Below, piece by piece: positions 12,054-47,227 of a stretch of DNA of 64,000 nt. Positions within the stretch are counted from its first letter, which is position 1; each line of letters starts with the position of its first letter. A program made the translations under genes and the position numbers. Origin of the DNA: Pontibacterium sinense (GTDB lineage Bacteria > Pseudomonadota > Gammaproteobacteria > Pseudomonadales > Balneatricaceae); assembly GCF_015209595.1 (NCBI RefSeq), contig NZ_JADEYS010000003.1, positions 1 through 64,000 of the forward strand, given 5' to 3'. The notes under the pieces are model-generated. The model made no database searches and was not told the DNA's origin. It worked only from the letters and a program-made list of their open reading frames with translations.

Positions 12054-12070
12054 TTGGCATTGTTTTTGCT
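12054..12070 (+). promoter_or_regulatory. Sigma-54 promoter of flgBCDE
   Basis: TTGGCAT, then TGTTT, then TTGCT, with the invariant GG (12056-12057) and GC (12068-12069) separated by exactly 10 bases as in the -24/-12 consensus TGGCAC-N5-TTGCW. It lies 35 bases before the flgB ATG. Confidence 0.88.
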
Positions 12071-30685: not shown

Positions 30686-30717
30686 ATCTAATGATTTTTT
30701 GACGCTTAGCCACTGTG

Positions 30718-32154
30718 ATGACTCAATCAAACCTTAATTTGGTGTACGTGGATGACGGCGGAGATGGCTATTTGCCATCCTGTGCGGGTTTTCTGCAGCT
30801 ACCTTTACAGCATTTCGATTACCCCCTCTGGCTGCAAAATGCAGATCAACTGGACGGCATTGATTCACCGGTGCTGTTGCTCGGGGCTTGCCGCACACCG
30901 ATCGCTGTAGATCGAATGCTGATCCAGCTGGCCGAAAACAACCCCGATATGCCGGTGCTCTTGTGTGGGCTGGCGAGAGAGGAGCTGGTGGCGCTGCCCG
31001 ATGAGCTTAAACCGATGGTGGTGGGGGCGTTAACTGAGCAGTTCTCTTACGGTGAGCTGACGGATTTATTGCATAAGGCTCAGGTTTACCGCCAGCAGAA
31101 ATCCAGCGGACAGCCGGTAATCGCGCCTAATGGCAGCAGTGTGCTGGGTGTCTCGGATGCCGTGATTCAGGTCCGGGCGATGATCAATAAAGTCGCGATG
31201 CGGGATGTCAGTGTGCTGATTACCGGCGAATCCGGCACCGGTAAAGAGGTCGTGGCACGCAATCTACATGAGCATTCTACGCGTCAGGGTGGACCTTTTG
31301 TGCCAATCAACTGTGGCGCTATTCCGGCTGAGTTGTTGGAAAGCGAATTGTTTGGTCATGAGAAGGGGGCGTTTACTGGGGCGGTGAATAGTCGGCCCGG
31401 ACGGTTTGAACTGGCGAAAGGCGGCACCTTGTTTCTGGATGAGATCGGGGACATGCCGTTGAATATGCAGGTGAAAATCCTTCGTGTCATTCAGGAGCGG
31501 AAGTTTGAGCGTGTGGGTGGTACCAAGACACTGGATGCTGATGTACGCATCGTCGCCGCGACGCATAAAGATCTGGAGTTGATGATCGAAGAGAATGAGT
31601 TTCGGGAAGATCTCTACTTCCGCCTCAATGTTTTTCCTATCGAAATGTCCCCCCTGCGTGAACGTATTGAGGATATTCCTGTGCTGCTTGAGGAGATGGT
31701 ACGGCGTGCCGATGCTCAAGGTTTAGGAAAGGTTATTTTCCACTCGAGTGCGCTGCGGTCACTGCAATTGCATCCCTGGCAGGGGAATGTTCGTGAATTA
31801 TCCAATCTTGTTGAACGTTTAGTGATTATGTATCCCGATGGGGTGGTGGGTGTCTCTGAGTTGCCCGCTAAATTCCGACATATTGAAGAACCTGATCCCG
31901 ATCGTTATCAACAGAAACTGGATTTCGGCCAGATTCCTGAGCGTCCGGCAGCGGAACCGGTCACTTCCGGTGAGTGCCTGTTGCCGGAACATGGCCTGAA
32001 TATGAAAGAGTATTTAGAGCAACAGGAGCGGGCGCTAATTGAACAGGCCCTTGATAGTTGTGAGAGTGTGGTCGCACGTGCTGCCGAAAAGCTGCAGGTA
32101 CGTCGGACCACATTGGTTGAGAAAATGCGTAAGTATGGCATTCAGCGGAAATAA
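30718..32154 (+). CDS. fleQ: Flagellar master regulator FleQ (FlrA)
   Basis: Sigma-54 enhancer-binding protein that starts the flagellar cascade; orthologues bind c-di-GMP. 478 residues: an N-terminal degenerate receiver (FleQ type, about 1-120), AAA+ domain with Walker A GESGTGKE (Lys176), sigma-54 contact loop GAFTGA (217-222), Walker [13 protein letters not shown], and C-terminal Fis-type helix-turn-helix ([22 protein letters not shown]). The ExxxR after Walker A is kept (EVVAR). The LFRS segment that precedes the AAA+ domain in Pseudomonas FleQ reads NGSS here (138-141). GTG 30715 is an alternative start; neither has a clear ribosome-binding site. Confidence 0.95.
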
Positions 32155-32160
32155 TGATTA

Positions 32161-33252
32161 ATGGATAAGTGGGTTGCGGCAGAAGCTCGAATTGCCGAAC
32201 TGGAAACACAGGTTTTGCAGCTGGAACAGCAGTTAGAAAAAGAGCGTCAGGCAGAGTCGGATGAGTCCAAACGGCTGGCCTCCAAAATGCGTCAGTTGCT
32301 TGATCTTCTTCCGGCGGGTGTTATCCAGATAGGTGGGGACGGTGTGATCTCCGACTGTAATCCGGCCGCTGAGGAGCTGTTGGGAAGTCAGTTGCGCGGT
32401 GAGTTGTGGATAGCTGTGATCCAGCGTTGCTTTGCACCGCGCAGTGATGATGGTCACGAGGTCTCATTACACGATGGCCGTCGGGTCAGTCTGGCAACAC
32501 GGGCGATGGATAACGAACCGGGACAACTGGTGCTTCTGACCAACCTGACAGAAACACGATTGCTACAGGATCGCCTGTCTCATTATCAGCGTTTGTCTGA
32601 GATGGGACGGATGATGGCATCGCTGGCTCATCAGATACGTACGCCTTTATCGGCCGCCTTGCTGTACGTTGATCACCTGTCGCGCACAGATATCACCCTT
32701 GAGCAGCGCACCAAATTTACTGCTAAAGTGAAATCCCGTCTGACTCACCTCGAAAAGCAGGTGCGGGATATGCTGGTGTTTGCGCGTGCTGAAACCCGCT
32801 TGGATGATCAGCTCACAACGGAACAGTTGTTCAGTGATATAGAGGATCAGCTGGATGTGCCGTTAACGTCGTTTGATGCCGATTGTGACTGTATTAATCA
32901 TGCGCCGGGATTATCCATTCAGTGCAACAAAGATGCATTGTTAGGGGCGATTATTAATCTGGTTGAAAATGCGTTGCAGGCGACAGGCGAAGGAGCTGAA
33001 CTCACCCTGTCCTTGTCGACGGACAGCGGAAACCTGTGGATCAATGTTGAAGATCACGGACCGGGTATGGATGACGAAACGCTGAGTCGGGCGATGGAGC
33101 CCTTTTATACGACCAAGTCCCACGGTACCGGGCTTGGTTTGGCGGTTGCTCAGGTTGTGGCGATGGCACATCACGGTCAGTTCGAGCTTCAGTCGTCGCT
33201 GGGTGAAGGAACAACGGCGTCAATAATTATGCCAGCGCAGTCAGCTGGTTGA
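32161..33252 (+). CDS. fleS: Flagellar sensor histidine kinase FleS (FlrB)
   Basis: Cytoplasmic kinase that phosphorylates FleR to turn on hook-basal body genes. 363 residues, no membrane segment: an N-terminal coiled coil (IAELETQVLQLEQQLEKERQ), a PAS domain (about 40-130, LLDLLPAGVIQIGGDGVISDCNPAAEELL), HisKA with His157 in LAHQIRTPLSAA, and HATPase_c with N-box NLVENALQA and G-boxes VEDHGPGMD and HGTGLGLAV. It starts seven bases after the fleQ stop, so it may be co-transcribed with fleQ. Confidence 0.95.
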   Translation: MDKWVAAEARIAELETQVLQLEQQLEKERQAESDESKRLASKMRQLLDLLPAGVIQIGGDGVISDCNPAAEELLGSQLRGELWIAVIQRCFAPRSDDGHEVSLHDGRRVSLATRAMDNEPGQLVLLTNLTETRLLQDRLSHYQRLSEMGRMMASLAHQIRTPLSAALLYVDHLSRTDITLEQRTKFTAKVKSRLTHLEKQVRDMLVFARAETRLDDQLTTEQLFSDIEDQLDVPLTSFDADCDCINHAPGLSIQCNKDALLGAIINLVENALQATGEGAELTLSLSTDSGNLWINVEDHGPGMDDETLSRAMEPFYTTKSHGTGLGLAVAQVVAMAHHGQFELQSSLGEGTTASIIMPAQSAG

Positions 33253-34989: not shown

Positions 34990-36945
34990 ATGAGTGAAGA
35001 AAAGGTATATCCAGTTTCTCCTGAAATTGCAGCGGAAGCTCACATCGACAACGATAAGTATCTGGCGATGTACGAGCAGTCTGTAAACGACCCGGATGCA
35101 TTCTGGGGCGAAGCCGGTAAGCGTCTGGATTGGTTTAAGCCGTACACGAAAGTTAAGAACACATCCTTTGATCCGCACAATGTTGATATCCGCTGGTTCG
35201 AAGACGGTACGCTGAACGCATCTTACAACTGTCTGGATCGCCACCTGGAAACTCGCGGTGATCAGGTAGCAATCATCTGGGAAGGTGATGACCCTAGCGA
35301 ATCTGAAAATATTACTTACCGTGATCTTCATGAGCGCGTATGTAAATTCTCTAATGCTCTGAAAGCACGCGGCGTTGAAAAGGGTGATGTTGTTACCCTG
35401 TACATGCCAATGATCCCTGAAGCTGCGGTTGCCATGCTTGCATGTACCCGTATCGGTGCTGTTCACTCTATCGTTTTCGGTGGCTTCTCTCCGGAAGCAC
35501 TGGCAGCGCGTATTGAAGGTGCAAACTCCAAAGTAGTTGTGACCTCAAACTACTCTCTGCGTGCAGGTAAGTCTGTTCCTCTGAAAGACAACGTCGACAA
35601 AGCACTGCAGCAAGACGCTGCTAAAGCCTGCGTTGACAGTGTGATTGTTGTTAAGCGTGTCGACAAAGACGTTGCATGGAACGACAGTGTTGATGTTTGG
35701 TACGAAGATCTGGTAGCTGAAGCGTCTGCAGAATGTGCTGCAGAAGAGATGGAAGCAGAAGCTCCGATGTTCATTCTGTACACCTCTGGCTCAACCGGTG
35801 CGCCAAAAGGCCTGAAACACACGACCGGTGGTTACATGGTGTATGCGTCCATGACGCATGAATACGCTTTCGATTACAAAGAAGGTGATATCTACTGGTG
35901 TACTGCGGATGTGGGTTGGGTAACCGGTCACAGCTACATCGTTTACGGACCTCTGGCGAACGGCGGCACCTCTCTGATGTTTGAAGGTGTGCCTAGCTAC
36001 CCAGATAACAGCCGTTTCGGTCGTGTTATCGAGAAGCATAAAGTTAACCAGTTCTACACCGCACCGACTGCAATTCGTGCACTGATGCAGCAGGGTGAAG
36101 ATGTACTGGGTGATTCTGACCTGTCTACCCTGCGTATCCTGGGTTCTGTAGGTGAGCCGATCAACCCGGAAGCGTGGGAATGGTATCACCGTATTATCGG
36201 TCAGGGTCGTTGCCCTATCGTTGATACGTGGTGGCAGACTGAAACTGGCGGCATGATGATCCTGCCTCTGCCAGGTGCGACTGCAACTAAGCCGGGTTCT
36301 GCTACCCGTCCATTCTTCGGTGTACAGCCTGCGTTGCTGGATGCGGAAGGGAATGAGCTGGAAGGTGCTGTTGATGGTAACCTGGTACTGAAAGATTCCT
36401 GGCCTGGCCAGAGTCGCTCAATCTGGGGTGATCACGAACGCTTTATCCAGACATACTTCTCCACGTATAAAGGTGTTTACACCACGGGTGATGGTGCGCG
36501 TCGTGATGAAGACGGTTACTACTGGATCACCGGTCGAGTGGATGACGTAATCAACGTATCGGGTCACCGTATGGGTACTGCAGAGGTTGAGTCTGCACTG
36601 GTTGCACACGAAGCGGTTGCTGAGGCAGCTGTAGTGGGCTATCCACACGATGTGAAGGGGCAGGGTATCTACGTTTATGTAACCCTGCAGTCTGGCTTTG
36701 AACAGTCTGATGAGCTGCTTAAAGAGCTGCGCATGCACGTACGTTCTGAGATCGGTCCAATTGCATCTCCGGATCTGATTCAGTTTGCGCCAGGCATGCC
36801 AAAAACCCGTTCCGGTAAGATCATGCGTCGTATCCTGCGTAAAATTGCTGAAGACGATTTCGGTGCGCTGGGTGATACCTCCACACTGGCTGATCCAACG
36901 GTTGTTGATGATCTGATTGAAAATCGAATGAACCGTAAAGGCTAA
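34990..36945 (+). CDS. acs: Acetyl-CoA synthetase (AMP-forming) Acs
   Basis: Activates acetate to acetyl-CoA through acetyl-AMP, the high-affinity route for acetate use. 651 residues, the usual length (652 in E. coli): adenylate-forming motifs [68 protein letters not shown], and the C-terminal regulatory lysine in RSGKIMRR (Lys610), the site of reversible acetylation in this family. AAGGGC precedes the ATG. Highly biased codons suggest strong expression. A terminator follows at 36970. Confidence 0.98.
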
Positions 36946-36969
36946 TCTTTCCTGATAGCGTGATACTTG

Positions 36970-37004
36970 AAACTCCCACCCGGTTTTGCCTGGTGGGAGT
37001 TTTT
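36970..37004 (+). terminator. Rho-independent terminator after acs
   Basis: AAACTCCCACC pairs with GGTGGGAGTTT over a loop of about 11 bases, ending in a T-run. It isolates acs from crbR. Confidence 0.92.
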
Positions 37005-37091
37005 GTATTAACGGTGTTATGATGGAGCCGGGATTAAGTTGCAGTACAGGAACTTGCACTGTCAGAGGTGTAAGAGGGGGGTAGTAAACGC

Positions 37092-37757
37092 ATGCAGCTA
37101 GCACAAAAAATAATTATTGCCGATGATCATCCGCTGTTTCGAGCAGCGTTGAAGCAGGCAGTGGCACAGGCAGTGCCAGGTGTGGCAACAGTAGAAGCTG
37201 ATTCATTGGCGGCTGTGCAGGAAGCAGTAGATCAAAATCCTGACGCAGATCTGGTGTTGCTGGATATTCACATGCCGGGTACGAATGGCTTTTCTGGATT
37301 AGTGTTCCTGCGAGGTCAGAATCCGGGGATTCCCGTTGTTGTTGTATCGGGTAGTGAACAGCCACATGTTATGAAGCGCGCGCTTGATTATGGTGCGTCT
37401 GGTTTTATCCCGAAATCTGCACCACTGGAAACCATCTCCGACGCGATCAAAGCTGTACTCGAAGGTGAGGAGTGGTTGCCGCAAGAAGTAGCGGACAATC
37501 TGGGTGATGTCAGCGAAGAAGATCAGAAATTTGCCGCCGCGTTGGCCGCCCTTACACCACAGCAGTTCCGTGTATTGACGATGCTAACCGAAGGTCTGTT
37601 GAACAAGCAGATTGCTTATGAGCTGAATGTATCTGAAGCGACCATTAAGGCTCATGTAACCGCTATTTTGCGTAAGTTGGGCGTTCATAGTCGTACGCAG
37701 GCTGTTATCGCTGCTCAGCGTCTTGGTGTAGAGCCACCGAAGACGGATGTAGAGTAA
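37092..37757 (+). CDS. crbR: LuxR-family response regulator CrbR (ErdR)
   Basis: DNA-binding partner of the CrbS sensor; in Vibrio and Pseudomonas it activates acs and acetate/ethanol use. 221 residues: receiver with IIADDHPLF, phospho-acceptor Asp58 (LVLLDIHMPGTNG), VSGSEQ and Lys in FIPKSA; LuxR/NarL helix-turn-helix at about 148-210 (LTPQQFRVLTMLTEGLLNKQIAYELNVSEATIKAHVTAILRKLGV). AGAGGGGGG precedes the ATG. It converges with crbS and lies between crbS and acs, which supports the CrbR identity over other NarL-type regulators. Confidence 0.9.
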   Translation: MQLAQKIIIADDHPLFRAALKQAVAQAVPGVATVEADSLAAVQEAVDQNPDADLVLLDIHMPGTNGFSGLVFLRGQNPGIPVVVVSGSEQPHVMKRALDYGASGFIPKSAPLETISDAIKAVLEGEEWLPQEVADNLGDVSEEDQKFAAALAALTPQQFRVLTMLTEGLLNKQIAYELNVSEATIKAHVTAILRKLGVHSRTQAVIAAQRLGVEPPKTDVE

Positions 37758-37784
37758 AATACCGCTTAAACTCGGATCGATTGT

Positions 37785-37811
37785 AAAAGGTGCCTGATGG
37801 CACCTTTTTTT
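37785..37811 (+). terminator. Bidirectional terminator between crbR and crbS
   Basis: AAAAGGTGCC/GGCACCTTTT with loop TGAT and a longer T-run. It serves both convergent genes, since the stem is flanked by A on one side and T on the other. Confidence 0.92.
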
Positions 37812-37821
37812 GTGTCTGCTT

Positions 37822-40800
37822 TTATTCCGTTGCTAGTGCGCGGGCGTTAGCGATGAGTTTGTTGATAATGGCGCGCAGTGCTGCCGGTCGGATCGGTTTT
37901 GTCAGGAGCTGGGCACCCGCTTCGGCAATTTCGATTTTAACCTCTTCCGTTCGGTCGGCGGTGATGACGATGGCAGGTATATCGCGATCGGTGAGTATCT
38001 GTATCTCTTTGAGTGCATTGACCCCAGTATCGGTTTCGGACAGGTGATAATCCGCCAAAATAATGTCAGGTTCAAAATGTTCCTCCTGAATACGGGCGAT
38101 CGCTTCATTGCCTGAAATGGCCACGGCAACCTCACAGGACCAGCCACCCAGAAGTGCGCTCATCCCTTCCAGTATTTTTGGTTCGTTATCGATCACCAGT
38201 ACGCGTACACCATTAAGCCCCTTGCTGCGTATCCAACCACGGTTTTCCGGTTTCTGTTTGACGGCATTCTCAGCGACGCCCAGCGGAACTTCGACGCTGA
38301 ATACGGTGCCCTTGGTTGGCCAGGAGCGTACACGCAGACGGTGTTCCAGCATACGGGCGATGCGTTCAGTGATGGCGAGCCCCAATCCAAGCCCTTGAAC
38401 CTGGGAGTGTTTAGGGTTGTCGATGCGCCGAAACTCCTCAAACACCTCTTTGAGTTTATTCTGTGGAATGCCTACGCCGGTATCCCATACCTCGAATCTC
38501 AGTTTATTTCCGCGTTTACGGCAACCCAATAGAATGCCGCCATTTTGGGTGTAGCGAATTGCGTTAGACAGGAAGTTTTGCAATATACGGCGCAGCATCT
38601 GTTGATCTGAGCGGACAACCAGTTTGCAGGGGTGGCAGCGGAATTTGAGGGATTTATCCAAGGCCATGGCGGTGAACTCGACCGACAACGTGCTGAATAG
38701 GTCGCTAACGCAGAAATCGGTGATAGAGGGTTCCAGCGCGCCCGCATCGAGTTTGGATATGTCCAGAATCGCGGTGATCAGTTCTTCGGCCGCTTTCAGT
38801 GAGCCGTCCAGATTATCCACAAGCTGCCGGGTTTCGTCGCTGTGACTTTTTTGTGCCAATGCAGAAGAGAACAGGCGTGCCGCATTAAGTGGCTGCAGCA
38901 GATCGTGGCTGGCTGCAGCGAGGAATCGGGTTTTGCCCAGATCGGCAGCTTCCGCATCGGATTTAGCCTGACGTAGTTCATCCTCCATCAGTGCGCGGAT
39001 AGTGTTTTCTTTACGCAGCTCTTTGTTCACTACCGAAAGCGCATGTGTCCGTTCTCTGACGCGTTGTTCCAGTGTTTCGTTGGTTTCCTGTAGGGCCTGC
39101 TCAGCCAGTCGTCGTTCAGTAATATCCTGATACAGGGTGAAATAACCCAGTACGTCGCCGTATTCGCCGATGTGTGGAATATAGGTTACTTCGGCGTAGC
39201 GGATGCTACCGTCTTTGGTGGGCAGAAGGGTTTCAAAGCGCTGTCGTTGTCCTGTTAACGCTTCACGAATATACGGAGTGCGCAGTTCATATTCGTCTTC
39301 CGGCAGTACTTTGTAGCAGGGTTGGCCGGAGATATTGTGACGATCCAGATCAAAGGTGGATGCATAGGCTTTGTTGACGAACAGGTAGCGACGGTTCGGG
39401 TCCAGGTAGGCGATCAGTACCGGTACGTTGTCGGTATAGATGCGAATGTTCTGCTCGCTTTCACGCAGGGCTTCCTCGATCTGTTTGTGGTCAGTGATAT
39501 CCATGTAGGTATTCACATAACCGCCATTGGGCATGGGATTGCCACGTACGTCCAGTACCGTGCCGTCCGGGCGGAAACGTTCATAGCTATGAGGTTGGCT
39601 GGAACGAAGCACTTCTAATCGTTTCTTAACCTGGGTTTCTATATCACCTGGGCCGTATTCACCTTTGATGGCGTTGTGGCGGAAGACTTCCTCAATCGGG
39701 CGCCCGACACAGATCAAACCTTCCGGATAATCAAACATCTCCACGTAGGGGCGGTTCCAGGCCACCAGGCGCATCTGCTGGTCCACAACACTGATACCCA
39801 GACTGATGTTTTCAATGGTTGATTGCAGCAATGAGCGGTTAAAACGCAGCGCCTGAGAGGCTTCATCTACGATAGTAACTACATCGCCGATCTGCATATC
39901 ACGGCCCTGCAGAATGGATGCAAGTACGATACGTGCGGAGGAGGCACCAATCACCCCGGCTAATAAGCGTTCAGTGAACTGAATCAGTTCCGGGGTGGCT
40001 TTATCGCCGGACAGTGGGGGTTCCTCCCCCCGTTGCAGGGCAAAGCCTGTAAATGAGTGCTGTGTACGGCTGATGCCCAAGAAACGCTCGGTCAGCATCT
40101 GTAGATCGCCGACGGTGACATGTTCATAGTGACGCGAAGTTTCCGGCAGATCCTTGTTGTAGATATCGACAAAAGCGCTGGCCTGAATCCTGTCCACCAA
40201 ACGCCGCGAGCTATATCGGGATACGGCGATGTAGAGCATGATATTGATCGATAAGCTCCAGAGCACGCCGTGGGTTAAAGGGTCTAGGTCTGTCATGCCA
40301 AACAGGGCTGTGGGCTTGAGCCAGCTCACAGAAAGAAGTCCATTGGCAAGGAAGCTGTCGCCAATTAATCCGCCTTCCATCAGCGTAGGGATTACCAGCG
40401 TGTAGAGCCACAACAGGAAGCCTGCGGACATGCCTATAAAAACACCGTTGCGAGACCCGGTTTTCCAGTATAAGCCGCCAATAATTGCGGGCAGGAACTG
40501 GATAACGGCAACAAAGGCCAGCAGGCCAAAAGAGGCTAATGATCCCTGATCACCGAGGATTCGGTAATAAAAGTAAGCCAGTAGCATCAGGCACATAATC
40601 GTGACACGACGGACTTTTAACAGCAGTGCACCAAGATCTTTGCTTTGGGATAGATTTAGCCAGGATATGCGAAACAGTAACGGCATGACGATGTCGTTAC
40701 AGACCATGGTTGAAAGCGCAATCGATGCAACGATAACCATGCTGGTGGCAGCAGACAGTCCGCCAATGAATGCGAAGGTGGCGAGATTAAAGTGGCCCTC

Positions 40801-41760
40801 GGCTAATGGTAGCATCAAGACGAAGGTGTCAGCATCAACCGCGCTGTATTCGTCGAAGTAGGAAAGGCCAGCCGTTGAGATGGGTAGTACAAATATGGCC
40901 AGCAGTGCCATATAAAGGGGAAACAGCCAGCGCGCAAGTTTCAGGTTTTGGATGTCGCTGGTTTCGACAATGGTGACCTGAAACTGACGGGGTAGGCAGA
41001 TGACGGCTGCACAGGCCAATACCGTCTCGACTAAGAAGCTGTCTTGCAGAATAGAGTGAAAGTTCTGATTTTGTGCCAGCTGGTGGCTGATGCTGGCAAT
41101 CAACGGCGCCGGGCCGTCAAAGATCTCATATGTGACAAAGATGCCGACTGCAATGAACGCGGTGAGCTTAATGATGGATTCGAACGCGACGGCTAATACC
41201 AGGCCATCATGGTGTTCTGTTGCATCTATATGCCGGGTACCAAACAGGATGGCAAATACTGCCATCAGCATCGCGACAAAAAGGGCTGTATCGCTGCCTT
41301 TACCCAGAGAGGTTTCGCTGCCGGCGGTGATCGCACTAAAGCTGATCGCAACGGCTTTGAGCTGCATTGCGATATAAGGAATGGTGCCTAGTACCGCAAT
41401 CACGGTGACCAAAACCGCTAATAGCTGGCTTTTCCCGTAGCGGGAAGAGATGAAATCAGAGATTGAGGTGATGTTCTGTTGTTTGCTGACCAGAACGATC
41501 TTTTCAATGACCTGCCAGCCAAGCATAAATACAAGGATTGGGCCTAAATAGGTGGCGAGAAATTCCCAGCCATTGGTTGATGCCCGTCCAACTGCACCGT
41601 AAAAGGTCCATGAGGAGCAGTACACCGCAAGAGATAGGGCGTAAACGATCTGCTTGCCGATACGGTTTGGGGTGGTGGCCTTGTCTCCGTAATAGGCGAT
41701 GGCGAACAGCAGTCCGACATACGCCAGCGAGATCATGATAACTGTCCAGCCTGACAACAT
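37822..41760 (-). CDS. crbS: Transporter-like hybrid sensor histidine kinase CrbS (MxtR)
   Basis: Membrane sensor of the acetate switch. 1312 residues: residues about 1-490 are a sodium:solute-symporter-like domain with about a dozen membrane helices; then a linker, two PAS modules (about 650-770 and 775-890, MDITDHKQIEEAL and LYQDITERRLAEQAL ending each), a coiled coil, HisKA with His952 in AAASHDLLQPLNA, HATPase_c (NFLSNAIRYTQNGG, WDTGVGIP, GLGLGLAI) and a C-terminal receiver with Asp1237 in IILADYHLS. This order is that of CrbS/MxtR. AAGGAG is 10 bases before the ATG. It converges with crbR and is divergent from the DUF4212/symporter operon. Confidence 0.92.
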   Translation of the reverse strand: MLSGWTVIMISLAYVGLLFAIAYYGDKATTPNRIGKQIVYALSLAVYCSSWTFYGAVGRASTNGWEFLATYLGPILVFMLGWQVIEKIVLVSKQQNITSISDFISSRYGKSQLLAVLVTVIAVLGTIPYIAMQLKAVAISFSAITAGSETSLGKGSDTALFVAMLMAVFAILFGTRHIDATEHHDGLVLAVAFESIIKLTAFIAVGIFVTYEIFDGPAPLIASISHQLAQNQNFHSILQDSFLVETVLACAAVICLPRQFQVTIVETSDIQNLKLARWLFPLYMALLAIFVLPISTAGLSYFDEYSAVDADTFVLMLPLAEGHFNLATFAFIGGLSAATSMVIVASIALSTMVCNDIVMPLLFRISWLNLSQSKDLGALLLKVRRVTIMCLMLLAYFYYRILGDQGSLASFGLLAFVAVIQFLPAIIGGLYWKTGSRNGVFIGMSAGFLLWLYTLVIPTLMEGGLIGDSFLANGLLSVSWLKPTALFGMTDLDPLTHGVLWSLSINIMLYIAVSRYSSRRLVDRIQASAFVDIYNKDLPETSRHYEHVTVGDLQMLTERFLGISRTQHSFTGFALQRGEEPPLSGDKATPELIQFTERLLAGVIGASSARIVLASILQGRDMQIGDVVTIVDEASQALRFNRSLLQSTIENISLGISVVDQQMRLVAWNRPYVEMFDYPEGLICVGRPIEEVFRHNAIKGEYGPGDIETQVKKRLEVLRSSQPHSYERFRPDGTVLDVRGNPMPNGGYVNTYMDITDHKQIEEALRESEQNIRIYTDNVPVLIAYLDPNRRYLFVNKAYASTFDLDRHNISGQPCYKVLPEDEYELRTPYIREALTGQRQRFETLLPTKDGSIRYAEVTYIPHIGEYGDVLGYFTLYQDITERRLAEQALQETNETLEQRVRERTHALSVVNKELRKENTIRALMEDELRQAKSDAEAADLGKTRFLAAASHDLLQPLNAARLFSSALAQKSHSDETRQLVDNLDGSLKAAEELITAILDISKLDAGALEPSITDFCVSDLFSTLSVEFTAMALDKSLKFRCHPCKLVVRSDQQMLRRILQNFLSNAIRYTQNGGILLGCRKRGNKLRFEVWDTGVGIPQNKLKEVFEEFRRIDNPKHSQVQGLGLGLAITERIARMLEHRLRVRSWPTKGTVFSVEVPLGVAENAVKQKPENRGWIRSKGLNGVRVLVIDNEPKILEGMSALLGGWSCEVAVAISGNEAIARIQEEHFEPDIILADYHLSETDTGVNALKEIQILTDRDIPAIVITADRTEEVKIEIAEAGAQLLTKPIRPAALRAIINKLIANARALATE

Positions 41761-42035
41761 GATGTGCCCGCTCCTTGATATGAATTTGAAAGTTCTAGTT
41801 TACTCTTTCTGTAAAGGAACCCAAATCCTGCCTTATACCTTTGTATAGAACTTTGAACTCAAAGGTCTTTTTTGAAATCGCTGTAGCCCTTGAATTACGG
41901 GGCGTGTCTGAAATTTTGCTATATAAATCAAGTACTACGATCAGACTAAAGTCGGGCTTTGATTGGGGCAGTGCTCTGATAATCTCTACTCTGTCTTTAG
42001 TTTCACCTATTCATAAAAAAAATAAGGATGGTGCA
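41761..42035. other. Divergent control region between crbS and the symporter operon
   Basis: 275 bases. Minus-strand side: AAGGAG for crbS. Plus-strand side: AGACTAAAGTCG at 41943-41954, GATAAT at 41978-41983, AAGGAT before the DUF4212 ATG. A frame open across 41841-42035 is noncoding upstream extension, since the recognisable protein starts at 42036. Confidence 0.6.
41943..41983 (+). promoter_or_regulatory. Candidate CrbR site and core promoter of the DUF4212/symporter operon
   Basis: AGACTAAAGTCG matches the acs repeat AGACCAATGTCT in AGAC-N-A-A-N-GTC. It starts 35 bases before a GATAAT -10-like box (41978-41983), nearly the same spacing as the 38 bases at acs, and again there is no good -35 box. 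The shared motif and geometry are seen directly; binding by CrbR is inferred. Confidence 0.5.
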
Positions 42036-42296
42036 ATGTCTATCAGCCCTGAACAGGCGCAAGCGTACTGGAAAGAAAACTTGCGCATAATATACACCTA
42101 TCTTGCGGTGTGGTTCGTAGCCTCCTATGGCTGCGGAATCCTGTTTGTCGAACAGCTTGATGCGATCCAGTTCTTTGGATTCCCACTAGGCTTCTGGTTC
42201 GGTCAGCAGGGATCAATCTTCGTCTTCGTTGTCTTGATCTGGATGTATGTTGCATCTATGAACAAGCTTGACGAAAAGTATGACGTTCACGAATAA
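42036..42296 (+). CDS. DUF4212 small membrane subunit of a sodium/solute symporter
   Basis: 86-residue protein of the family found just upstream of VC_2705-type symporters, thought to be its small subunit. Sequence: a short amphipathic start (SPEQAQAYWKENLRIIYTYLAVWF), and two membrane segments (about 20-40 and 55-75, FGFPLGFWFGQQGSIFVFVVLIWMYVASM), then a charged tail LDEKYDV. AAGGAT lies 9 bases before the ATG. The pairing and position beside acs/crbRS suggest it acts in acetate or other short-chain acid uptake. Confidence 0.93.
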   Translation: MSISPEQAQAYWKENLRIIYTYLAVWFVASYGCGILFVEQLDAIQFFGFPLGFWFGQQGSIFVFVVLIWMYVASMNKLDEKYDVHE

Positions 42297-42332
42297 CAAC
42301 AATAAAAATAATCTAGTAAGGACGGCATTGTT

Positions 42333-44141
42333 ATGAGTCTCGATTTACTTACTTACCTCTTTATCGGTGGTTCGTTTGCGCTTTATATCGGTATTGCGAT
42401 TTGGGCGCGTGCAGGATCTACCAAAGAGTTCTACGTAGCAGGCGGTGGTGTACCACCAATCGCTAACGGCATGGCAACTGCAGCTGACTGGATGTCTGCA
42501 GCTTCCTTTATCTCCCTGGCTGGTTTGATCTCCTTCGTCGGCCGTGATGGTTCTGCCTACCTGATGGGTTGGACTGGTGGTTACGTACTGTTGGCACTGC
42601 TGCTGGCACCTTACCTGCGTAAGTTTGGTAAGTTCACTGTGCCAGACTTTGTAGGTGACCGTTACGGTTCAAGCACTGCGCGTATCATCGCCGTTGTTTG
42701 TACTATCGTAATCTCTTTCACTTACGTAGCTGGTCAGATGCGTGGCGTTGGTATCGTATTCTCCCGTTACCTGCACGTTGACATCAACACCGGTGTAATC
42801 GTCGGTATGGCAATCGTATTCTTCTACGCTGTACTGGGTGGTATGAAAGGTATTACCTATACACAGGTTGCACAGTACTGCGTACTGATCCTGGCGTTCA
42901 CCGTTCCAGCATTCTTCCTGTCTGCGCAGATTACTGGTCACTTCCTGCCTCAGTTCGGTCTGGGTGCGACTCTGGAAAGCGGTCAGTCTGTATTGGCGAC
43001 GTTGGACCAACTCTCTGTTGATTTGGGCTTCTCCCAGTACACCTCAGGTAAGAAATCAACGATTGATATCTTCTTCCTGACAGTCGCACTGATGTGTGGT
43101 ACTGCTGGTCTGCCTCACGTAATCGTACGTTTCTTCACTGTACCTCGCGTAAAAGATGCGCGTACTACTGGTGGTTACGCACTGATCTTCATCGCACTGC
43201 TGTACACTGCGGTACCAGGTGTTGCTGGTTTCGGTCGTGTAAACCTGATCCAGGAAGTAAACGGTCCACAGAACACGGGTACTGCTTACGCTGAAATGCC
43301 TTCTTGGTTTAAAAACTGGGAAAATGCGGGTCTGCTGGCATGGAATGACCGTAACGGCGACGGCATTGTACAGTACGCTGCTGGTGCTGCGTTCGATGCG
43401 AAGAAAGGTAAGCCTGCATTCATCGATGAGCGTGGTGAACACGGTCAGCGCATGACTTCCAACGCTAAAACAGATGCTTCTTTCGATGCTGCTAAACAGC
43501 CGTTCGCAAACGAAGTATACGTAGACCGTGACATCATGGTACTGGCTAACCCAGAGATCGCTCAGCTTCCAGGTTGGGTAATTGCTCTGGTAGCAGCGGG
43601 TGCGGTTGCGGCAGCACTGTCCACTGCAGCAGGTCTGCTGTTGGTAATCTCCACTGCAATCTCGCATGACTTGATGAAGAAGACCATCAACCCGAATATC
43701 TCTGATAAACAGGAATTGATGTACGCTCGTCTGGCTGCGGTGGTAGCAATCTGTATTGCGGGTTACTTCGGTATCAACCCTCCTGGCTTCGTGGCTCAGG
43801 TAGTGGCGTTGGCATTCGGTATCGCATGTGCGTCCGTATTCCCAACTCTGATGCTGGGTATCTTCTACAAGCGCATGAATACTCAGGGTGCGATCGCAGG
43901 TATGCTGGTAGGTCTGGTATCTACTGTTGGCTACATGTGGTACTTCGTATTCGGTGGCGGTAACTCTGCTGACTACTTCATGGGTATCTCCCCAGGTGGT
44001 TTCGGTACTGTTGGTATGATTCTGCACTTCATCGTTGCTTTAGTTGTTGCACAGATGACTCCTCCTCCTTCAGAGGAAATGCAGCGTATCGTAGAAGACC
44101 TGCGTATCCCTCGCGGTGCTGGTGTTGCTCACGATCACTAA
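42333..44141 (+). CDS. Sodium:solute symporter (VC_2705 family, ActP-related), probable acetate uptake
   Basis: 602 residues, 13 likely membrane segments, with SSS-family features: EFYVAGGGVPPIANGMATAADWMSAASFI, YVAGQMRGVGIVFSR, GTAGLPHVIVRFFTVPRVKDAR, AAALSTAAGLLLVISTAISHD. A polar extracytoplasmic loop (about 320-405) contains DRNGDGI at 339-345, an EF-hand-like calcium-binding pattern. It is related to acetate permease ActP but belongs with the two-component type that has a DUF4212 partner. AAGGACGG is upstream of the ATG. The substrate is inferred from the acs/crbRS context. Confidence 0.9.
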   Translation: MSLDLLTYLFIGGSFALYIGIAIWARAGSTKEFYVAGGGVPPIANGMATAADWMSAASFISLAGLISFVGRDGSAYLMGWTGGYVLLALLLAPYLRKFGKFTVPDFVGDRYGSSTARIIAVVCTIVISFTYVAGQMRGVGIVFSRYLHVDINTGVIVGMAIVFFYAVLGGMKGITYTQVAQYCVLILAFTVPAFFLSAQITGHFLPQFGLGATLESGQSVLATLDQLSVDLGFSQYTSGKKSTIDIFFLTVALMCGTAGLPHVIVRFFTVPRVKDARTTGGYALIFIALLYTAVPGVAGFGRVNLIQEVNGPQNTGTAYAEMPSWFKNWENAGLLAWNDRNGDGIVQYAAGAAFDAKKGKPAFIDERGEHGQRMTSNAKTDASFDAAKQPFANEVYVDRDIMVLANPEIAQLPGWVIALVAAGAVAAALSTAAGLLLVISTAISHDLMKKTINPNISDKQELMYARLAAVVAICIAGYFGINPPGFVAQVVALAFGIACASVFPTLMLGIFYKRMNTQGAIAGMLVGLVSTVGYMWYFVFGGGNSADYFMGISPGGFGTVGMILHFIVALVVAQMTPPPSEEMQRIVEDLRIPRGAGVAHDH

Positions 44142-44163
44142 TCGCTTGAGTTAGTTACTTCTT

Positions 44164-44196
44164 AAGGCACACCAGCGCGAGTTGGTGTGCCTTTTT
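44164..44196 (+). terminator. Rho-independent terminator after the symporter gene
   Basis: AAGGCACACCA/TGGTGTGCCTT, an 11-bp stem with loop of eight bases and three further T. It is only 20 bases before the next ribosome-binding site, so the DUF294 gene either depends on read-through or has a promoter inside this short gap; none is obvious. Confidence 0.9.
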
Positions 44197-44222
44197 CATT
44201 TATATGTTGGGAGAAAATGGAT

Positions 44223-46055
44223 ATGCCTTCATCTTTTAATATGGATAACATGCCGTTCAACCTGCTGGACGAGCGTGAGAGTAACCTGCTGCGCCAGAAT
44301 CTGGATATCGGGTACTATCAAAAAGGTGAGGTGCTGTTAGCCGCGGGTACAGAGCCGGAAGGGGTGTTTATCATTCTGAAAGGCCGCGTGAGTGAAAGCG
44401 AGGCGGTGGAAGAAGGTCAGTCTGATCAGCAGCATCATGTATTTGTGCATTACACCAATGAAGATTACTTTGGTGCTTGGTCGGCTATTCGCGGTAAAGC
44501 AATTCATAACTTTATTGCTGAAGAAGAAACGATCTGTCATATCCTGCCCACCAAGATCCTTTTGGATCTGATGTCTTCAAACAGCCTTTTTGCAGATTAT
44601 TTTCAGCAAAACCTCTCGGCGAAATCTGAAATTGTTGCTCAGCATGGCGGCGATCAGGATATGGCTGAGTTTATGCTCGCCAAAGTGTCTAGTGGGGTTA
44701 TTCGTGAACCGCTGATCATATTGGAAGGTACGAGTATTGATGAGGCAACCCGTTTAATGCGGGAAAAGAAAGCGGATTGCATGTTGATAAAAAGAGGGAG
44801 TCGTTACGGTATTGTGACGGGGACCGATCTATTGGATGCAATCGTGGTCAATCGTATTTCTCTGGATGGTGATATCGCTGATGTGGCGAGCTACCGGCTG
44901 ATTACGATTGAACCCGAAGATTATATGTTTAATGCCCTGATTATCATGACGCAGCAACATATTGAGCGTGTCGTTGTTATGAAGGGGGATCAGCTTGAAG
45001 GGATTGTTGAGCTGACCGATGTATTGAGCTATTTCTCCAGTCATTCGCATGTGATCGGTTTACGTATTGAGCGTGCCCAGACGATCGAAGATCTGCATGA
45101 GGCTGCGGAAGGCCTGGATGATCTTATTAAGGCATTGGTTTCGCACGGTGTGAAAACGCGCTTTGCGATGGATCTGTTGGCTGCTATGAATGGCCGTATT
45201 ATGGCTAAGCTGTTCGATATTATGATTCCTGCTGATATGCAGCCACACGTATGCCTGGTAGTGATGGGGTCAGAGGGGCGCGGCGAGCAGATCATGAAGA
45301 CTGATCAGGATAATGCGATTATCCATCGTGATGGTCTGGTGTGGCCGGAGATGCAGGACAGGCTGAATGAATTCAGCAAGACGCTTATTGAATTCGGTTT
45401 CCCGCCTTGCCCGGGTAATATCATGGTGTCCAACCCTGAATGGGTGAAATCTCTGGGCGACTGGACACAGATGCTGGGTGATTGGGCCGAGAAGTGCGAT
45501 GGCGAAGCACTGATGAATTTGGCGATAGCGGTGGATGCCAAGCCGGTGGCGGGTAACCCTGCGATCTTCAAGGCGAGCCGTAACTGGTTTATGCGTTATC
45601 TTCGCAATAACGATGTCTTTTTCTCCCATTTTGCGCGAGCGACCATCGAGTTTGATACGCCTTTGACCTTCTTTGGGAATCTCAAAGAGAAGGGACAGTT
45701 GGATATTAAAAAGGGTGGGATTTTCCCTATCGTACATGGTGTTCGCACGCTAGCGCTTGAGCATAAGGTAAAAGCGACTAACACGTTTAAACGCATAGAA
45801 GCGCTGGTTGAGTTGGGCGAGATGCAGGATAAACACGGTCGTGAAATGACCGAAGCGCTGAGCTTGTTTATTCAGCTGCGTTTGCGTCAGCAGATTAAGC
45901 GTATGGATCAGTCTGATAGTGGCGTAGACCAAACGCCTAATATCATTGAGCTGGCCTGTTTGGATAAAATGGAACGAGACCTCTTGCGTGATGCCTTGCA
46001 TATCGTAAAAGGATTTAAGAAACATTTGACCCTACGCTACCACCTTGGGAGCTAA
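44223..46055 (+). CDS. cNMP-binding / CBS / DUF294 nucleotidyltransferase-like protein
   Basis: Cytoplasmic regulator-like protein of about 610 residues. N-terminal cyclic-nucleotide-binding-type jelly roll (about 15-130, GYYQKGEVLLAAGTEPEGVFIILKGRV), two CBS repeats (about 155-275, LEGTSIDEATRLMREKKADCMLI and IEPEDYMFNALIIMTQQHIERVVVMKGDQLEGIV), a DUF294 nucleotidyltransferase-like domain (VMGSEGRGEQIMKTDQDNAII) and a helical DUF294 C-terminal domain. This protein type commonly accompanies SSS/DUF4212 symporters and resembles GlnD-like adenylyltransferases; its target is unknown. GGGAG is 9 bases before ATG 44223; ATG 44217 is the alternative. Confidence 0.92.
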   Translation: MPSSFNMDNMPFNLLDERESNLLRQNLDIGYYQKGEVLLAAGTEPEGVFIILKGRVSESEAVEEGQSDQQHHVFVHYTNEDYFGAWSAIRGKAIHNFIAEEETICHILPTKILLDLMSSNSLFADYFQQNLSAKSEIVAQHGGDQDMAEFMLAKVSSGVIREPLIILEGTSIDEATRLMREKKADCMLIKRGSRYGIVTGTDLLDAIVVNRISLDGDIADVASYRLITIEPEDYMFNALIIMTQQHIERVVVMKGDQLEGIVELTDVLSYFSSHSHVIGLRIERAQTIEDLHEAAEGLDDLIKALVSHGVKTRFAMDLLAAMNGRIMAKLFDIMIPADMQPHVCLVVMGSEGRGEQIMKTDQDNAIIHRDGLVWPEMQDRLNEFSKTLIEFGFPPCPGNIMVSNPEWVKSLGDWTQMLGDWAEKCDGEALMNLAIAVDAKPVAGNPAIFKASRNWFMRYLRNNDVFFSHFARATIEFDTPLTFFGNLKEKGQLDIKKGGIFPIVHGVRTLALEHKVKATNTFKRIEALVELGEMQDKHGREMTEALSLFIQLRLRQQIKRMDQSDSGVDQTPNIIELACLDKMERDLLRDALHIVKGFKKHLTLRYHLGS

Positions 46056-46058
46056 ACG

Positions 46059-46688
46059 ATGATTATCCCAAGAACGATAAGAAGAATAAAAGAACGTTAC
46101 GATCATAAGGGCGGGCCGTATGCCCACCTCTTCGAATCCTATGAAGGTGATGAAGTGGTTTCGCTGGATTGCGAGACCACCAGTTTGGATGTAAAGCAGG
46201 GCGAAATACTGTCAATTGGCGCGGTTAAGATTAAAGGCAACCGTGTGATGACCAGTGATCGTCTGGATATTAAGCTGAAAGCGCCTGAATCGCTGACTGG
46301 TGATTCGATCAAAATTCACAAAATTCGCGCCAGTGATTTGAGTGAAGGGATTGAGCTGGAAGATGCGTTGGAGCAGGTGCTGGAGTTTGTCGGTAATCGC
46401 CCAATTTTAGGCTATTACGTTAACTACGATATTCGTATGTTAGATAAATTCATTCGCCCGAAATACGGTTTTAGTTTGCCTAATAAGGCGGTTGAGCTGT
46501 CCCATGTTTATCATGACATCATAAAGTGGCGATTTGTTGGCGGGAATGTGGACCTGCGATTTGATACGATATCTAAGTCACTTGATATACCAATGCTTGA
46601 GCGTCATACGGCGTTAGGTGATGCGATTACCGTTGCGCTGATGTATGTTCGCCTGAAACACGGTGAGCCGCCCGCCGTAAACTGTTAA
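46059..46688 (+). CDS. DnaQ-like 3'-5' exonuclease (DEDD family)
   Basis: 209 residues with the three exonuclease motifs: Exo I LDCETTSLD (Asp37, Glu39), Exo II ILGYYVNYDIRMLDKFI, and Exo III HTALGDAITVALMY. It resembles the epsilon-type proofreading fold and small accessory exonucleases that occur next to DUF294 proteins and SSS symporters in Pseudomonas relatives. It lies three bases after the DUF294 stop, so the two are surely one unit. Whether it acts on DNA, RNA or nucleotides is unknown. Confidence 0.9.
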   Translation: MIIPRTIRRIKERYDHKGGPYAHLFESYEGDEVVSLDCETTSLDVKQGEILSIGAVKIKGNRVMTSDRLDIKLKAPESLTGDSIKIHKIRASDLSEGIELEDALEQVLEFVGNRPILGYYVNYDIRMLDKFIRPKYGFSLPNKAVELSHVYHDIIKWRFVGGNVDLRFDTISKSLDIPMLERHTALGDAITVALMYVRLKHGEPPAVNC

Positions 46689-46716: not shown

Positions 46717-46741
46717 AAAGCGGGCCATTGGTCCGCTTTTT
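46717..46741 (+). terminator. Terminator after the exonuclease gene, overlapping the fliE promoter
   Basis: AAAGCGGGCC/GGTCCGCTTT (10 bp, one G-U) with a 3-base loop and T-run of five. The right half is also the -24/-12 promoter of fliE. Confidence 0.88.
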
Positions 46742-46744
46742 GCA
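46728..46744 (+). promoter_or_regulatory. Sigma-54 promoter of the fliE operon
   Basis: TTGGTCC, GCTT, TTTGCA: GG (46730-46731) and GC (46742-46743) are exactly 10 bases apart, with a strong TTTTTGCA -12 side. The -24 side deviates from TGGCAC at two positions. It lies about 130 bases before the fliE ATG. Confidence 0.75.
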
Positions 46745-46814
46745 TTTATATTCTGTAAAGGTGCTTTAAACGGTTGTTCATGCCAAATTTTTGTCGTAAT
46801 TTTGGCGTTATACG

Positions 46815-46842
46815 TTGAAGGCCCCTGTCTGTTACCTATAAT
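46815..46842 (+). promoter_or_regulatory. Candidate sigma-70 promoter of fliE
   Basis: TTGAAG at 46815-46820, 16 bases, then a perfect TATAAT at 46837-46842. It is 32 bases before the fliE ATG. It could give a basal level of fliEFGHIJ, if real. Confidence 0.5.
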
Positions 46843-46873
46843 GTCAATAAATTGCCGAAGTGCGGAGTGAGGA

Positions 46874-47227
46874 ATGGTCGATCGAGCTGATATCAACAAT
46901 GTGCTGATGCAGATGCGGGCGATCCAGTCACAGGCTCAGGGTGGCGCGGGTATTACCGCTGCTGCACCTATTGCGCCAAATCAGGCGGAACTAAAGACAG
47001 ACCGTACAGGCTTTGGTGATCTGCTGAAGCATGCAGTGGACAGCGTTAACGAAGTGCAGGGAACCGCCAAAAAACTGGCGACGGCGTATGAAAAGGGGGA
47101 TCCTACCGTGGATCTTCCTCAAGTAATGATTGAGGCGCAGAAAGCGTCGGTGTCGTTTCAGGCGATGACTCAGGTGCGTAACCGGTTGGTGAGCGCATAT
47201 GAAGATATTATGAAGATGCCGATCTGA
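46874..47227 (+). CDS. fliE: Flagellar hook-basal body adapter FliE
   Basis: Joins the MS ring to the rod and is the first exported rod-type substrate. 117 residues: poorly conserved N-terminus (MRAIQSQAQGG), then the conserved FGDLLKHAVDSVNEVQGTAKKLATAYEKGDPTVDLPQVMIEAQKASVSFQAMTQVRNRLVSAYEDIMKMPI ending. Length is typical (104 in E. coli). GTGAGG is upstream of the ATG. It is the first gene of fliEFGHIJ. Confidence 0.96.
   Translation: MVDRADINNVLMQMRAIQSQAQGGAGITAAAPIAPNQAELKTDRTGFGDLLKHAVDSVNEVQGTAKKLATAYEKGDPTVDLPQVMIEAQKASVSFQAMTQVRNRLVSAYEDIMKMPI

Follow-up and report, generated by a model that had tools for sequence, protein, structure and literature searches.

A fused stop-and-start element very likely lies between a 3'-5' exonuclease gene and fliE in the marine bacterium Pontibacterium sinense, where the terminator of the exonuclease unit appears, from sequence comparison, to share bases with a FleQ/sigma-54 promoter of fliE, and a sigma-70 promoter is predicted besides. 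The fusion is real, widespread in the family and probably dual in function.

The exonuclease-fliE boundary

The window analysed here is the whole stretch of 64,000 nucleotides, and its features at the exonuclease-fliE boundary are listed in Table 1. A first-pass annotation had proposed that the right arm and T-run of a hairpin at 46717-46744 overlap a sigma-54-like motif, and this was confirmed by sequence, spacing and fold. The stem at 46717-46739 comprises 10 bp, with six GC pairs and one G-U, and the 23-mer folds at -14.4 kcal/mol (z -4.4; as good in 1/200 shuffles); the GC-rich hairpin is followed by a T-run, as in intrinsic terminators. In the sigma-54-like site, GG (46730-46731) and GC (46742-46743) are separated by ten bases, giving the GG-N10-GC spacing together with TGGCAC-like and TTGCW-like boxes. 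The site shows two departures (T for C and C for A) from the consensus TTGGCACG, and all site scores reported here derive from a weight matrix that is rough. The pattern TGGYNNGN4TTGCW occurs twice without mismatch in the window, the other match being located at 33135 within the ORF at 32161-33252, while the exact 17-mer of 46728-46744 has a single occurrence in the 4.64-Mb genome. RpoN is encoded in the genome and, with the FleQ gene in the window, both the sigma factor and an enhancer-binding protein for a sigma-54 promoter are present. The proposal that the same 17 bases serve as both stop and start signal is supported at the sequence level, but the stop also requires the left arm, which forms no part of the promoter. 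Similarly, the T-tract had been said to supply the -12 element, which is correct only in part, as the T-run contributes just the TT of TTGCA.

Table 1. Coordinates of the features discussed, in window positions
Feature	Coordinates	Strand	Details
FleQ-type activator gene, likely enhancer-binding protein	30715..32154	+	Best PDB match FleQ (8p53), E 1.7e-147
3'-5' exonuclease gene (PRK09145 type)	46059..46688	+	NF006601, 258.8 bits (cut-off 189)
Left arm of terminator hairpin	46717..46726	+	AAAGCGGGCC; outside promoter core; covaries with right arm in relatives
Hairpin loop	46727..46729	+	ATT; between arms AAAGCGGGCC and GGTCCGCTTT
Putative sigma-54 promoter core	46728..46744	+	TTGGTCCG-CTTT-TTGCA; matrix score 16.1
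Right arm of hairpin	46730..46739	+	GGTCCGCTTT; common to -24 box and spacer of promoter
T-run of hairpin	46737..46741	+	Overlaps the 3' end of right arm GGTCCGCTTT, which is followed by TTGCATTTAT
Predicted fliE transcription start (sigma-54)	46755	+	12 bases downstream of the C in the -12 GC
Weak FleQ-like box 1	46782..46806	+	GCCAAATTTTTGTC (46782-46795, 10/14) or GTCGTAATTTTGGC (46793-46806, 9/14)
Sigma-70 promoter candidate	46815..46842	+	TTGAAG-N16-TATAAT
FleQ-like box 2	46843..46856	+	GTCAATAAATTGCC; directly 3' of TATAAT; 13/14 to P. aeruginosa FleQ consensus
fliE	46874..47227	+	TIGR00205, 97.9 bits (cut-off 30)

A block at 34990-46688 separates fleQ, plus fleS/fleR-like genes named by position, from fliE. 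It holds an acetate-CoA ligase, an ErdR-like regulator (below the model cut-off) and the exonuclease, as well as ORFs resembling, by eye, a large sensor kinase and a transporter. Within it, a strong terminator hairpin (44164-44193; -23 kcal/mol) is located immediately upstream of the start of the ORF at 44187, or overlaps it, with a right arm and T-run that nearly amount to a sigma-54 site (TTGGTGTGCCTTTTTCA). Further sigma-54-like sites precede flagellar-cluster ORFs at 12054, 15808, 52569, 56428 and 59969; folds at 12054 and 52569 revealed no terminator at the site.

Rarity of the arrangement in the genome and class

A simple scan of both strands of 864 kb of the genome (~19%; the window and forty 20-kb stretches) identified 295 terminator-like hairpins, thirteen of which have a T-run followed by GC[AT]; the fliE element is the one hairpin that has GG in register too. 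Sigma-54-like sites over the right arm and T-run score at least 9 in two of the 295, and at least 12 in the fliE element alone. The pattern TGGN6TTTTGCW occurs at 29 places in the genome, all of which were folded, and the fliE element has the lowest energy (-17.1), followed by L151 (-13.3) and L137 (-12.1); L156 (-10.5) has a weaker stem likewise reaching the T-run. A tight fused pattern, which the Pontibacterium sinense fliE element itself does not fit, was found across the class at 30 places in 29/369 genomes (12 in the reversed control). Among the 26/30 that were folded, the right arm reaches the T-run in three by eye (L227, L228 and L245), and ORFs adjoin two of these places (L227 and L245).

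Conservation of the sigma-54 site and hairpin among fliE loci

FliE is present in 92/116 genomes of the family, and the DNA upstream of fliE was compared for 90 of the 92 FliE genomes, leaving out G090, G101 and two second matches. An orthologue of the exonuclease adjoins fliE in 81/90 loci, and the best sigma-54 site within 450 bases scores at least 12 in 84/90, with no good site in L066 (9.3), L111, L123 and L126-L128. In L111 and L123 (genus codes g3 and g15) the exonuclease and fliE are adjacent with no sigma-54 site, and the two loci instead share AACAATTTAAGTAAGATGC, followed, by eye, by a hairpin.

A hairpin whose right arm lies over the -24 box occurs in 66/84 loci, by a definition that includes pairing of site positions 5-8. 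When the left flank was shuffled, a control free of the equal-loop circularity described below, hairpins arose in 3.5 of the 84 loci on average and in 9 at most; swapping left flanks among loci still gave a mean of 41/84, many loci having common arms. The full fusion of hairpin, T-run and site, in which the right arm coincides with the -24 box and the T-run continues into the -12 box, is found in 62/84 loci belonging to seven genus codes (g1, g2, g5, g8, g11, g12 and g13). Four hairpin loci (L044, L048, L075 and L098) have no full T-run, so that T-runs are present in 62 and absent from 4 of the hairpin loci, versus 5 and 13 of those without (Fisher 2.5e-8, kinship ignored). GC[AT] follows the T-run in 66/66 fliE hairpin loci, as compared to 13/295 ordinary terminators of the Pontibacterium sinense genome, although the former figure, like the invariance of GG and GC among the chosen sites, is partly a matter of construction. 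The median promoter score is slightly lower in hairpin loci (14.9 vs 16.2).

The sigma-54 site is retained without a hairpin in 18/84 loci. Marinobacterium (2 loci) and Pseudomonas/Halopseudomonas (4 loci) likewise have the site and no hairpin, and sites without full fusion occur in g6, g7, g9, g10 and g16, as well as in single members of g12 and g13. A quick tree built from 81 exonuclease and FliE pairs, which has many weak branches and gives no direction, requires at least seven changes of the fusion trait. Beyond the family, but in the same order, FliE occurs in 139/194 genomes, and none of the 24 extra-family loci among 29 newly read combines a stem and T-run at its best site. Two genomes (G017 and G088) have the exonuclease match in two pieces, one of which in G017 contains two TAA, and retain the fusion (L087 and L095).

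Compensatory changes point to maintenance of the pairing itself. Across hairpin loci the right arms engage in G-C, A-T and G-U pairs, along with a small number that are inverted, and loop length (3-6) and stem sequence vary while pairing stays, as expected of an intrinsic terminator, subject to the circularity that follows. Between nearest same-genus pairs, for 32/39 right-arm differences the left arm has a change that restores Watson-Crick pairing, while six give G-U and one breaks the pair; this compensation is partly forced, and thus overstated, since a pair of loci counted only if both had the hairpin, with equal loops, and the loci are related. Control registers offset by 1-3 bases yielded between 1 and 13 such double changes. 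For example, L104 and L105 differ by only 0.3% in protein, yet one has G-C and the other A-T inside the -24 box. As the site is kept without the hairpin, and the hairpin is kept while its arms change, neither appears to be a by-product of the other. The dual terminator and promoter reading of the first-pass annotation is accordingly supported by comparison, in that both functions look conserved and separable across relatives.

Candidate terminators of the exonuclease unit

A separate terminator between the exonuclease and the site was detected in 0/61 fused loci and 5/18 unfused loci (L049, L070, L079, L099 and L108), and under a stricter scan in 0/65 hairpin loci and 2/14 others (L070 and L079). 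The separate terminators of L049, L099 and L108 are modest hairpins; L099 and L108 are the sole unfused loci of g13 and g12, respectively. No terminator was found by the scan in the gap of the remaining 13/18 unfused loci, so one is not essential there. Seventeen exonuclease genes that are not followed by fliE were also read, one of which (L174) stops at the contig end and was hence not judged. The 15 belonging to g9 and g14 all lack a terminator within 200 bases, and the same stretches have no sigma-54 site scoring at least 12, and none above 10.4. In L158 (g8), where FliE was not found in the genome, the hairpin and a near-intact site (ATGGCCCGTTTCTTGCT) are retained, as would be compatible with a relic or with a locus in which only the terminator is functional.

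FleQ-like boxes and a conserved sigma-70 promoter candidate

Two FleQ-like boxes recur between the site and fliE, near +28 and +89. The best box matches at least 11/14 positions in 76/85 loci, where shuffled regions would give ~4, and a box of this quality is located at +78 to +110 in 75/85; the box near +28 is weak in the window and a better match in several relatives. A FleQ consensus near the promoter is thus present, as would be expected if the promoter is FleQ-regulated. PMC6120874 quotes the FleQ consensus GTCaNTAAAtTGAC, against which box 2 was scored, locates it at F113 fliE and considers the motif unreliable by itself. Citing Jyot 2002, whose title refers to sites that are atypically downstream, it describes FleQ as bound, with no looping, close to the fliE promoter of P. 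aeruginosa.

The sigma-70 promoter candidate, which the first-pass annotation had named as the competing fliE start, proved to be a conserved element in the family. TATAAT stands directly before FleQ-like box 2 in 66/85 loci, and in 63 of these 66 TTG occurs at a spacer of exactly 16, with none at 15, 17 or 18. The first box matches at least 4/6 positions in 49/66 (~8 expected from shuffles), so that a TTGACA-like box and TATAAT at a conserved distance within the 16-18 range are found at 46815-46842. Given this conservation, two promoters probably serve fliE, of which the fused one is perhaps neither the sole nor the main start; most transcription of fliE could come from the sigma-70 promoter.

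Alternative explanations

Were the element solely a terminator, its sigma-54 likeness would be accidental and fliE would be started by the sigma-70 promoter, whose strong conservation suits such a view; other terminators also approach the motif, as does the hairpin at 44164-44193, which runs into TTGGTGTGCCTTTTTCA. This is nevertheless very unlikely in view of the invariable GC[AT] after the T-run of fliE hairpins, partly by construction as noted, against its scarcity elsewhere, and of the 18 loci that keep the site without a hairpin. It is likewise unlikely, if a little less so, that the promoter alone is functional, with the inverted repeat being a protein-binding operator or functionless and the RNA not terminating. 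The 13/18 unfused loci with no terminator detected in the gap indicate that one may be dispensable, but stem sequence and loop length vary under maintained pairing, unlike in an operator, the T-run goes with the hairpin, and the scan detected no second terminator in any fused locus.

The sigma-54 motif has many near matches (33 in the window with at most one mismatch vs 20.5 expected), and a chance overlap with neither reading under selection could be imagined on that basis. It is hardly credible against 62/84 fused loci in seven genus codes, when randomised flanks reach 9/84 at most, and the family comparison led us to disfavour it.

Proposed function and origin of the fused element

Under the favoured reading of a fused terminator and promoter, termination, sigma-54 initiation and FleQ action would, as we infer them, proceed as follows. 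Polymerase leaving the exonuclease gene would form the hairpin and halt in the T-run; as the U-run is just UUUUU before GC, termination may be incomplete. As DNA, the right arm would constitute the -24 box, and the T-run would at its end enter the -12 box, of the fliE sigma-54 promoter, at which FleQ-activated RpoN polymerase would start fliE ~14 bases beyond the T-run stop, with the FleQ boxes downstream of the start. FleQ on box 2 would probably cover the abutting sigma-70 promoter. Since the hairpin is upstream of both predicted fliE starts, it would be absent from the fliE mRNA. A more speculative and rather doubtful extension is that a parked sigma-54 closed complex acts as a roadblock boosting exonuclease termination, and is itself displaced or occluded by elongating polymerase, making a three-way switch of both units and the FleQ-coverable sigma-70 promoter. 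The sigma-54 promoter looks to be the older part, as Pseudomonas and Marinobacterium loci have the site without a fused hairpin, with the left arm having been added, or else retained, in much of the family.

Some ten bases would thereby be read in two codes, by RNA pairing and by sigma-54 recognition, across seven genera of a single family. Natural variants having only one of the two functions allow comparison, and make for a clean system for asking whether termination of the upstream gene is influenced by a poised sigma-54 polymerase. The element also carries a warning, as programs that predict sigma-54 sites and those that predict terminators can report identical bases.

Comparison with known systems

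A literature search, with subscription papers mostly outside its coverage, returned no account of a fusion between a terminator and a sigma-54 promoter. The fusion joins two well-known kinds of element and is not a new class of system. The arrangement resembles that of Pseudomonas fliE (FleQ/RpoN class II) in its sigma-54 site, nearby FleQ gene and downstream FleQ-like boxes. It differs in that the Pseudomonas/Halopseudomonas loci (L014, L015, L017 and L018) and that of a Pseudomonadales MAG (L016) have no fused hairpin, and in the distance from the site to the fliE start codon, which is 129 bases in Pontibacterium sinense as opposed to 55-56 bases in those four Pseudomonas/Halopseudomonas loci. 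The GC-rich stem, short loop and T-run are those of intrinsic (rho-independent) terminators, but unlike in ordinary ones the T-run ends after five T, where GC stands in the register required for sigma-54. In PMC6424431, a putative sigma-70 promoter is described as overlapping the FleQ motif at P. putida PbcsD, with repression proposed to occur by blocking of polymerase. The fliE locus is similar in having a putative sigma-70 promoter at a FleQ motif, but here the candidate differs in lying beside a flagellar sigma-54 promoter and in having a -10 box that abuts, rather than overlaps, the motif.
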